DNA of 22,262 nt from IMG/VR virus record IMGVR_UViG_3300045135_000370, positions 1 to 22,262 of that record. One strand, given 5' to 3'. The stretch is from a virus. The notes under the pieces are model-generated. The model was not told the origin of the DNA, made no database searches, and saw only the letters and a program-made list of their open reading frames with translations. A program made the position numbers and the translations under genes. Of the stretch, positions 16,195 through 22,165 are shown in pieces (positions within the stretch are counted from its first letter, which is position 1; each line of letters begins with the position of its first letter).

Positions 16195-16719
16195 CTAGGG
16201 TCTTGAAAACCCAAACTTATTGTTGGCTGCTCGCCATTCAATTGTAGACTTACTTATTCCAAGTGCTTCAGCCGCAAGTTTGGCTGTTGCGTAAAACCCT
16301 TCTGGCGTAATAACACCTTTTGCCTTGTAGTGTTTAGCTCCACCTGTAGCTTCTGAAATTTTAGCCTTCACTTCTGGTCTGTGCATTACATTGTTTTCGC
16401 CTTTGGCATAGTCATGTGGTTTACCTTTGGCTGCTTCAGACTTTTTGCGTTTAGTCTCTTCGCTGTCAGGTTTGCCCACATTACCATCGCTTACGTTCTG
16501 CTTGCCTTTACCTATAAACACATTTTCCACAGAGTAAGGGCCAGTATCTCCGACCCTACACATACAGTATTTATCTGCGCCTCTGCCTCTTTGTGGCCAC
16601 TTACCAGACTTATCCCACATCTCAGTCCACTGCTCAAAGGTCATACAAAAATCTATACCTCTTCTTTTTGCATTGCTCTTATGAGCAGTAAACTTCTTTC
16701 TTGCATCTTTAATATCCAT
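16195..16719 (-). CDS. Free-standing homing endonuclease with NUMOD-like repeats
   Basis: 174 aa with an AGGAG ribosome binding site 7 nt from the ATG. The N-terminal part (HKSNAKRRGIDFCMTFEQW, then a stretch with GRGADKYCMCR and GPYSVENVFIG) matches a putative DNA-cutting domain common to phage homing endonucleases. Residues ~85-132 carry NUMOD3-like repeats (SEETKRKKSEAAKGK and HRPEVKAKISEATGG). The C-terminus (GFYATAKLAAEALGISKSTI) is a NUMOD1-like helix-turn-helix that binds target DNA. It is a selfish gene between a tail fibre and its assembly protein; the flanking genes appear intact. The catalytic class (HNH versus other) is uncertain, as no complete HNH triad is obvious. Confidence 0.75.
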   Translation of the reverse strand: MDIKDARKKFTAHKSNAKRRGIDFCMTFEQWTEMWDKSGKWPQRGRGADKYCMCRVGDTGPYSVENVFIGKGKQNVSDGNVGKPDSEETKRKKSEAAKGKPHDYAKGENNVMHRPEVKAKISEATGGAKHYKAKGVITPEGFYATAKLAAEALGISKSTIEWRAANNKFGFSRP

Positions 16720-20641: not shown

Positions 20642-21505
20642 TTACGCCTGTACTGCTAGTACGAAACCAGTTTCTGGACGTAGAGTTTTAACACCGTAGA
20701 TAGTGTCTGAAGTGAACAGGTCAGCTAGGTATTCCTGTTTGTACTGAGTCTGTGAACGTACACCAAGCTGCTCAGCTAGAACGAATGTGTCTTTGTGCAT
20801 GAATAGAGCACCACGAACACCAGTTTCTAGAGTTGGGCAGTTGTTAGATACGTAAACATCAATACCGTATAGGTTACCGATTAGACCAGTGTTAACGCCT
20901 TTACCTTCAACAAAGTCACGGCTGTTGTAACGGTCAATGCCTAGGATGTCACGACGAGCTGATGGCGGGATAACTAGAACACGGTTGTCCATTGGAGTAT
21001 CAGCGTCATCCATTAGCTTGATAAGGCTACGGAAAGCTAGATCAGAGAACGCACCGATGTCAGCAGAACCGTCAGCATCGTATGCTTCTAGAGCACCAGT
21101 AGATGTGTTGATCTGGTAAGAGTTGCTGTGAACCCAAGAAGAACCGTCACCGTCGCCTAGAGATTTACCTAGAGCAAAGATGTCGTTGTCTACCTGAGTT
21201 GATAGAGCGTAACCAGCGTCATCAGTGTAGAAGCGGCGCATAGAGTCTAGAGCCTGAACGCCTACGATGTCCTCAATCATGCGTGAGTATTCGTAGTGTT
21301 TGTCAATAGTTACAACTACTTCTGATTCAGTATCAGCCTGAATAGTTACTGCAGTGTTAGCTGCTTTAACTGAAGCTGTGCCACGAGTTGGTTTAGGGAT
21401 ATGTAGAGCATCGCCTTTTTTACCAACCATAGACATTTTGTTTACTAGGTTAGCAAGTACAAGGTTTTTCTTGTAAGATGCTACAATTTCATCTGACCAC
21501 AATTC
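20642..21505 (-). CDS. Major capsid protein, exon 2
   Basis: 287 codons to TAA at 20642-20644, encoding most of the HK97-fold coat protein. It begins ELWSDEIVASYKKNLVLANL, continues with VGKKGDALHIPKPTRG, KHYEYSRMIEDIVGVQALDS and RVLVIPPSARRDILGIDRYN, and ends with a stretch containing GVKTLRPETGFVLAVQA. These are the conserved blocks of marine podophage coat proteins, which normally have an N-terminal arm ending FIPE(L/I)WSDE. An in-frame TTG at 21508 gives a seemingly complete ORF, but it has no ribosome binding site and would lack the arm. The true N-terminus is exon 1 at 22165, and the intron joins to codon GAA at 21505. The spliced product is 311 aa. Confidence 0.92.
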   Translation of the reverse strand, partial: ELWSDEIVASYKKNLVLANLVNKMSMVGKKGDALHIPKPTRGTASVKAANTAVTIQADTESEVVVTIDKHYEYSRMIEDIVGVQALDSMRRFYTDDAGYALSTQVDNDIFALGKSLGDGDGSSWVHSNSYQINTSTGALEAYDADGSADIGAFSDLAFRSLIKLMDDADTPMDNRVLVIPPSARRDILGIDRYNSRDFVEGKGVNTGLIGNLYGIDVYVSNNCPTLETGVRGALFMHKDTFVLAEQLGVRSQTQYKQEYLADLFTSDTIYGVKTLRPETGFVLAVQA

Positions 21506-22093
21506 CAAAGAGCATTACAGCTCTTCCGACTATCGCATCACAAAATAGCTAATATAGCCTCTTGTGCCTGTTCACTTAGTCTGTGCGGGTCACGCTTCAT
21601 TAGCTTCATCTCATTCTTAACGGCTGTTACAGCTTCTGCTGTCAGTTTCCGTCCTTTCAAGTTAGACTCAAGCCACAGTGCAAACCGTGCTTGTTCCTTC
21701 TTGACAATGAGGTGATTCACAATATTACGTAGAAACGTACAAGCCCTATTATAGCCTGATGCGTTCCAAGTAATTGAATCCTGCCATTTTGGATTATTGG
21801 TTGTACGATACTCTCTAGAGCCTGCGAAATTATTACAGATATTATCCATAAGTGCTTCCGCAACAACAGTCATTGTAATACGTACACGTGGTTGAATATA
21901 GTACTGCTCTTCTCGTTTGTTTACTACGATGTCAATACAGCCTTCACCGTCAATTAATCCAGCTAAATACTTCCAACTTAATTTCTTCATACTACCCTCT
22001 GTAGTTGAACTGAATGTTAGTCCGTCGTGTTCCCTCTGGTTACTTACGTTCCCAGTTATTCAGAACAGGTTTTACATCCCCAAATTATAGGCT
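21506..22093 (-). ncRNA. Group I self-splicing intron in the major capsid gene
   Basis: 588 nt between in-phase exons. The 5' exon end AUCCCU pairs with GGGGAU (22081-22076) inside the intron: a six-pair P1 with the required U.G at the splice site. GACUA (22022-22018) can pair with UAGUC (21532-21528) as P7. AAGAGC/GCUCUU (21525-21520 with 21513-21508) forms a P9-like hairpin just before the 3' end. The last intron base is G (21506), the expected omega-G. CUGG/CCAG segments between P1 and P7 could belong to P4-P5. A LAGLIDADG ORF fills the middle. Unspliced mRNA reaches a stop two codons into the intron. The exact subgroup and full fold need computation. Confidence 0.9.
21538..21990 (-). CDS. 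LAGLIDADG homing endonuclease encoded in the intron
   Basis: 150 aa with a single LAGLIDADG motif at residues 9-17 (LAGLIDGEG), followed by the typical CIDI strand. D14 and E16 supply acidic residues around the metal site. One motif implies a homodimer of I-CreI type, cutting a palindrome-like site at the intronless MCP junction. Further family features are the NNPKWQDSITWNASGYNRA strand pair and the C-terminal helices (FLRNIVNHLIVKKEQARFAL). AGAGGG lies 4 nt before the ATG. The stop lies only 32 nt from the 3' splice site, so the end of the gene overlaps core elements of the ribozyme. It may also act as a maturase, which sequence alone cannot show. Confidence 0.92.
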   Translation of the reverse strand: MKKLSWKYLAGLIDGEGCIDIVVNKREEQYYIQPRVRITMTVVAEALMDNICNNFAGSREYRTTNNPKWQDSITWNASGYNRACTFLRNIVNHLIVKKEQARFALWLESNLKGRKLTAEAVTAVKNEMKLMKRDPHRLSEQAQEAILAIL

Positions 22094-22165
22094 AGGGATA
22101 AATGTGTCAGCGTTTGTTTTGTTTACGATAGACGTACTACCGCCTGGGTATGCTACTTTAGCCAT
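22094..22165 (-). CDS. Major capsid protein, exon 1 (N-terminal arm)
   Basis: 24 codons from ATG 22165: MAKVAYPGGSTSIVNKTNAD, then TFIP, ending on CCT with a complete codon. Joined to exon 2 this gives NADTFIP-ELWSDEIV, the usual coat-protein N-terminus. AGGA lies 10 nt upstream of the ATG. Without splicing the frame stops after SL at TAA. This exon is too short to be called by most gene finders, so the MCP start is easily misannotated. Confidence 0.88.

Follow-up and report, generated by a model that had tools for sequence, protein, structure and literature searches.

The major capsid protein (MCP) gene of this virus is interrupted by a 588-nt insertion that is, with a probability of about 96%, a mobile group I intron with a LAGLIDADG nuclease encoded in its L6 loop; its splicing and the cleavage activity of its nuclease are predicted from the sequence. 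We analyzed the whole 22,262-nucleotide stretch of DNA (here called the window) together with homologous contigs. The comparison established the boundaries of the insertion, its empty sites, its covarying secondary structure, the family of its nuclease and its mobility.

The MCP gene is interrupted at a precise site

The MCP gene lies on the minus strand, and the positions of its exons, of the insertion and of the ribozyme parts are given in Table 1. The reading frame that starts at 22165 encodes MAKVAYPGGSTSIVNKTNADTFIP followed by SL and a stop codon, three codons past the junction, and the product of exon 2 matches the PHROGs major head protein family with a value of 3.4e-51. Joining 22094 to 21505 puts the two exons in frame and restores an MCP of 311 aa. 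A previous sequence-only reading had proposed exactly these exon and insertion boundaries, and they held.

The closest comparison is provided by a relative with an 89%-identical MCP (L001), whose MCP ORF is intact and likewise 311 aa long. We examined the junction in the 80 closest MCP relatives in IMG/VR. The contig reached far enough in 78 of them, and all 78 were uninterrupted, with FIP or FVP running straight into E-[LI]-W-S-D-E. Because every relative that covers the junction is contiguous and the L001 ORF is intact, the empty site is precisely defined. With these empty alleles and insertions at the same position in dozens of contigs, the presence of an insertion in the MCP gene is far beyond chance.

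Table 1 Features of the interrupted MCP gene (window coordinates)
Feature	Positions	Strand	Remarks
MCP exon 1	22094..22165	-	24 codons, MAKVAYPGGSTSIVNKTNADTFIP, ending FIP
Exon-1 side of P1	22099-22094	-	last six nt of exon 1, ATCCCT
Group I intron	21506..22093	-	588 nt, terminal G at 21506
In-frame UAA stop	22085..22087	-	third codon after exon 1, within P1 loop
P10 strand UAAUUU	22082..22087	-	pairs with first six nt of exon 2, GAAUUG, 21505-21500
Internal guide sequence (IGS) GGGGAU	22076..22081	-	P1 with exon 1 AUCCCU, U.G at splice site
P3 5' strand CCUGUUC	22063..22069	-	
P4 (CUGG/CCAG) around P5 (AC-GUAA-GU)	22036..22055	-	GNRA-type loop in P5; J4/5 A-rich
P6 5' strand GGG (22034-22032) and P6a 5' strand CACG (22029-22026)	22026..22034	-	
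Hairpin ACUAC-AGAGG-GUAGU preceding the HEG	21991..22005	-	Shine-Dalgarno-like AGAGG in loop, just 5' of HEG start codon
Intron ORF (HEG)	21538..21990	-	150-aa single-motif LAGLIDADG homing endonuclease (LAGLIDGEG), in L6
P6a 3' strand CGUG (21594-21591) and P6 3' strand CCC (21589-21587)	21587..21594	-	within HEG codons
P7 5' strand GACUA (R element CACAGACUAAG)	21577..21581	-	within HEG codons R-L-S
P3 3' strand GAACAGG	21567..21573	-	within HEG codons E-Q-A
P8 hairpin CACAAGA/UUUUGUG	21539..21566	-	3' strand overlaps HEG stop UGA 21540-21538
P7 3' strand UAGUC (S element)	21528..21532	-	
P9 hairpin GAAGAGC/GCUCUUU	21507..21526	-	
MCP exon 2	20642..21505	-	ELWSDEIV..., 287 codons plus stop; phrog_267 major head protein

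Covariation supports a group I ribozyme core

We aligned 22 homologous cores, the ORF being excised for the alignment only. The bases of P1, P3, P4, P6/P6a, P7, P8, P9 and the hairpin preceding the ORF paired in 96.7% of the cells of this alignment. Two-sided changes were found in 124 cells, against 34 in shuffles, and none of 500 shuffles reached 124. Covariation partly reflects the relatedness of the sequences, but sliding the helix partners in the same 22 cores, a control that retains this relatedness, lowered pairing to 38-47%. When the structure was withheld, RNAalifold recovered P1, P3, P4, P5, P6/P6a and P9.

The strongest single item for group I identity is P3, all seven pairs of which are Watson-Crick in 22/22 homologues despite nine different sequences. 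The P7 pairs change together, from GACUA/UAGUC to GACUG/CAGUC, and P8, P9 and the stem of the hairpin preceding the ORF covary as well. The core follows the canonical order P3, P4, P6, P7, P8, with the P3/P7 pseudoknot. In support of the group I reading of the insertion put forward earlier, P1, P3 to P5, P6/P6a and P7 to P10 were all recognized, with strong covariation among homologues. The R and S elements (CACAGACUAAG and GAUAGUCGG) presumably resemble those of the Tetrahymena intron, a likeness that carries no subgroup assignment.

The splice sites are tied to the exons in the same way. P1 forms six of six pairs in the window and in 22/22 homologues. This six-pair helix, whose U.G lies at the 5' splice site, had been claimed from the sequence, as had the G that ends the intron, and both are there. 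Six exon 1/guide pairings change in concert: ATCCCT/GGGGAT, ATTCCT/GGGAAT, GTCCCT/GGGGAC, ACGCCT/GGGCGT, ATACCT/GGGTAT and TTTGGT/GCCAAA. The script that collected them took perfect pairings only, and the upstream sequences of the loci found by profile could be read directly. P10 fits its own exon 2 better than shuffled partners (11/20000), as exemplified by GAAUUG with UAAUUU and GAAAUU with AAUUUU, and a terminal G was present at every 3' junction located.

These data bear on a different reading of the locus, in which the MCP gene is truly split, the 26-aa peptide (MAKV...FIPSL) stands alone, the coat protein starts at TTG 21508 and a free-standing nuclease lies between them. The stop codon three codons past the junction and the in-frame position of that TTG would fit such an arrangement. 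However, intact relatives require no internal TTG start, and this TTG is created solely by the last bases of the intron abutting exon 2. Covariation moreover links the P10 strand to exon 2 and the guide to exon 1, and selection has preserved the whole ribozyme core, including the part that the nuclease codons cover. A split gene is thus very unlikely, and the group I intron remains our reading of the insertion.

It might also be that the intron family is functional and the copy in the window dead, belonging to a defective phage or a mis-assembled contig, as the window comes from a metagenome and is a linear fragment of 22 kb. Against this, all helices of the window copy are intact (P3, 7/7; P7, 5/5; P8, 7/7; P10, 6/6 contiguous pairs counting G.U, or seven with the next position), its nuclease frame is open and its exons are in frame. 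We accordingly give a dead copy very little credence and treat the window intron as an intact member of its family.

The Rfam group I models, suggested as a check of the sequence-only reading, gave no match in the window at the gathering threshold or at E<=10, and none in 11 homologues at the gathering threshold. This does not refute the group I assignment, since a covariance model is a detection tool and not a defining feature of these introns. The miss is likely explained by the short peripheral helices and by the ORF of about 440 nt between the P6a strands, in L6. A hand-drawn core that placed P7 at a chance GACTA (22021-22017), took CUGAA/UUCAG for P3 and put the ORF in P8 was discarded; both elements are absent from the homologue L081. 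The homologue alignment places the R element and the 3' strand of P3 within the 3' end of the HEG.

The intron ORF is a LAGLIDADG nuclease whose codons overlap the ribozyme core

Although the insertion itself had been correctly described, the sequence-only reading overlooked the 150-aa LAGLIDADG ORF that takes up most of it, and also that the ribozyme core has its 3' portion within this ORF. The ORF matches Pfam LAGLIDADG_1 (PF00961) above the curated cut-off (E=1.4e-9). A profile built from 18 homologues matches the structures of I-CvuI (2.4e-9), I-MsoI and I-CreI, and residues D14, G15 and E16 are invariant in those 18 sequences. With its single LAGLIDADG motif, the nuclease presumably acts as a homodimer. 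It shares its single-motif sequence family with I-CreI, I-CvuI and I-MsoI; the known I-CreI-type enzymes, however, come from algal chloroplast rRNA introns, whereas the predicted target of the window nuclease is the capsid gene of a phage, and its C terminus is under the constraint of the ribozyme. The PHROGs families matched by the nuclease, phrog_5046 and phrog_12980, are labelled 'HNH endonuclease', a label contradicted by the Pfam and PDB results. One scan of genome contigs gave nothing closer than remote LAGLIDADG proteins of bacteria and archaea, and a search for copies of the core devoid of the ORF found none.

LAGLIDADG nucleases also occur in inteins, and the PF00961 match might therefore suggest that the insertion is an intein, or else a translational bypass element. 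Both are extremely improbable: in each of the 42 distinct introns a stop in frame with exon 1 follows directly on it, ahead of the guide, the intron ORF has its own start in a different frame, and what is conserved is an RNA structure rather than splicing blocks.

The final ~20 codons of the HEG (KRDPHRLSEQAQ...) hold the 3' strands of P6a and P6, the 5' strand of P7, the 3' strand of P3 and P8, within which the stop codon lies. Where homologues have the same residue, codon identity is 78% at HEG codons 131-143 versus 43-62% elsewhere; synonymous choice is restricted where the codons overlap the core. Conversely, the amino acid varies wherever P3 or P6a covary, giving SEQA, SEKA, SEEA, SESA or SERA. 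The covarying strands of these two helices thus force amino acid changes in the nuclease. The overlap illustrates cleanly how the same nucleotides can both encode a protein and build a catalytic RNA. Endonuclease ORFs that overlap an intron core are a known arrangement, and phage introns less commonly carry nucleases of the LAGLIDADG type (PMC3984707).

The intron is optional and has moved recently

A search with the intron ORF found one relative of 58% identity, in L081; it too sits within an MCP gene, and the codon boundary is identical. Patterns derived from the window and L081 junctions then identified 8, 23 and 57 IMG/VR contigs in successive rounds, and the nuclease profile added about 18 more. 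Homologous elements were found on more than 70 IMG/VR contigs, with both junctions located in 46 loci. Exon 1 varies widely in sequence among them yet ends in [FYI]-[IVLT]-P, and the element thus occupies a single site across varied capsid genes. This insertion point corresponds to the codons for a near-invariant coat motif.

Some introns are 100% identical while exon 2 of the MCP differs by 11%, and others are 98.8% identical while it differs by 15%. Recent mobility follows from identical introns residing in phages with 89%-identical coat genes. Exon 1 of the interrupted genes ends in ATCCCT at every junction seen in the loci found without using that sequence, but in only 8/68 empty alleles; this fixation in intron-bearing genes is what guide pairing or co-conversion predicts. 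Optional presence, as seen from the empty alleles, and divergence decoupled from that of the host gene together point to a mobile intron.

Proposed mechanism

Group I introns splice by a standard two-step route. P1 would form in the pre-mRNA between the guide GGGGAU and the AUCCCU that closes exon 1. Guanosine would attack at the U.G pair, and P10 would align exon 2. Attack at the terminal G would then join ...FIP to ELWSDE..., yielding the normal 311-aa coat protein. Both this chemistry and its operation in vivo are predicted, as are the activity of the nuclease and the control of its translation. Ribosomes coming from exon 1 would halt at the in-frame UAA, before they unfold the ribozyme core, and the hairpin directly 5' of the ORF, with its Shine-Dalgarno-like loop (AGAGG/GGAGG), may modulate nuclease translation. 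The last ~20 codons of the nuclease would be both translated and folded into the P6a, P6, P7, P3 and P8 strands.

The nuclease is predicted to cut capsid genes that lack the intron, in phages sharing the infection, at the conserved FIP-E-[LI]-W-S-D-E codons; cutting the empty MCP allele would let the intron copy across, and the pattern of mobility lends this indirect support. We put forward tentatively, and at somewhat less than even odds, a broader proposal, in which an undescribed and widespread lineage of homing introns has specialized on MCP genes, rivals without the intron have their coat gene destroyed by its nuclease, and the Shine-Dalgarno hairpin shields ribozyme folding from nuclease synthesis. 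If this were true, the intron would serve as a competition weapon in mixed infections as well as being a parasite.

Relation to known phage introns

The td, nrdB and nrdD genes of phage T4 contain self-splicing introns in which expression of the homing nuclease (I-TevI) must not disturb splicing. Those introns carry GIY-YIG or HNH nucleases and reside in genes of nucleotide metabolism, whereas the window intron carries a LAGLIDADG nuclease and resides in a structural gene.

The novelty that the sequence-only reading implied for a coat gene intron was overstated, as precedents exist. The Cluster J mycobacteriophage LittleE (2013) has a probable group I intron in its MCP gene, with splicing in vivo demonstrated by RT-PCR and protein N-terminal sequencing (PMC3706429). 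It resembles the window intron in the U before the intron, the G at its end and a LAGLIDADG-type nuclease related to I-CreI. By contrast, LittleE is a siphovirus with an HK97-like MCP and a high-GC host, its insertion is 819 bp long at an unrelated position, and its nuclease lies on the strand opposite to the MCP gene rather than on the MCP strand as in the window; the two are likened by description only. The LittleE paper also cites a coat gene intron in Tuc2009 (PMC3706429). In crAss-like phages of the Delta and Zeta groups, MCP genes harbor group I introns with endonuclease domains (PMC7886860). These belong to another phage order and host phylum and were predicted from protein domains, and the likeness is again one of description only.

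A nuclease of ~29% identity is encoded in the head gene cluster of cyanophage PP (AGY46503; record 38042-38467). There it is free-standing, between terminase and portal, and the annotated MCP is one CDS. The intron lineage had no match by blastn against 50,697 phage records, nor was it found in the open literature searched. It is thus apparently an undescribed lineage of an already known kind, the phage coat gene introns, and one that has repeatedly colonized the gene that many environmental phages express most strongly. Since standard Rfam models miss the lineage, gene callers will truncate or mis-start coat proteins that are used as phage markers.

Variants of the intron and related nucleases

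In L170 and L171, read upstream of the HEG match, the intron lies 10 nt further downstream, after ..TTTGGT, and the guide, GCCAAA, is re-matched to the new exon; the intron has switched its site without leaving the conserved capsid motif. Longer introns, of about 720-770 nt in the copies that show both ends, occur in L113 (around 1485-1625), L115, L185, L187 and L190. In these the nuclease region continues into a stretch within P8 that resembles a Cys4 zinc ribbon (CLDCGTTEKPHEAKGYCSVCYKRF in L113). Diverged copies in L085, L123, L134, L194 and L196, described here without a located exon 2, have GACUG/CAGUC as P7 and extra 3' helices. In L085, L123 and L134, GCGA loops cap P9 and the ORF continues across the S element.

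The same nuclease family is also found free-standing in L195 (3001-3450), directly before an uninterrupted MCP. The window itself contains a second homing-endonuclease-like ORF on the minus strand (16195-16719; NUMOD3, phrog_314), which is apparently free-standing between structural genes.
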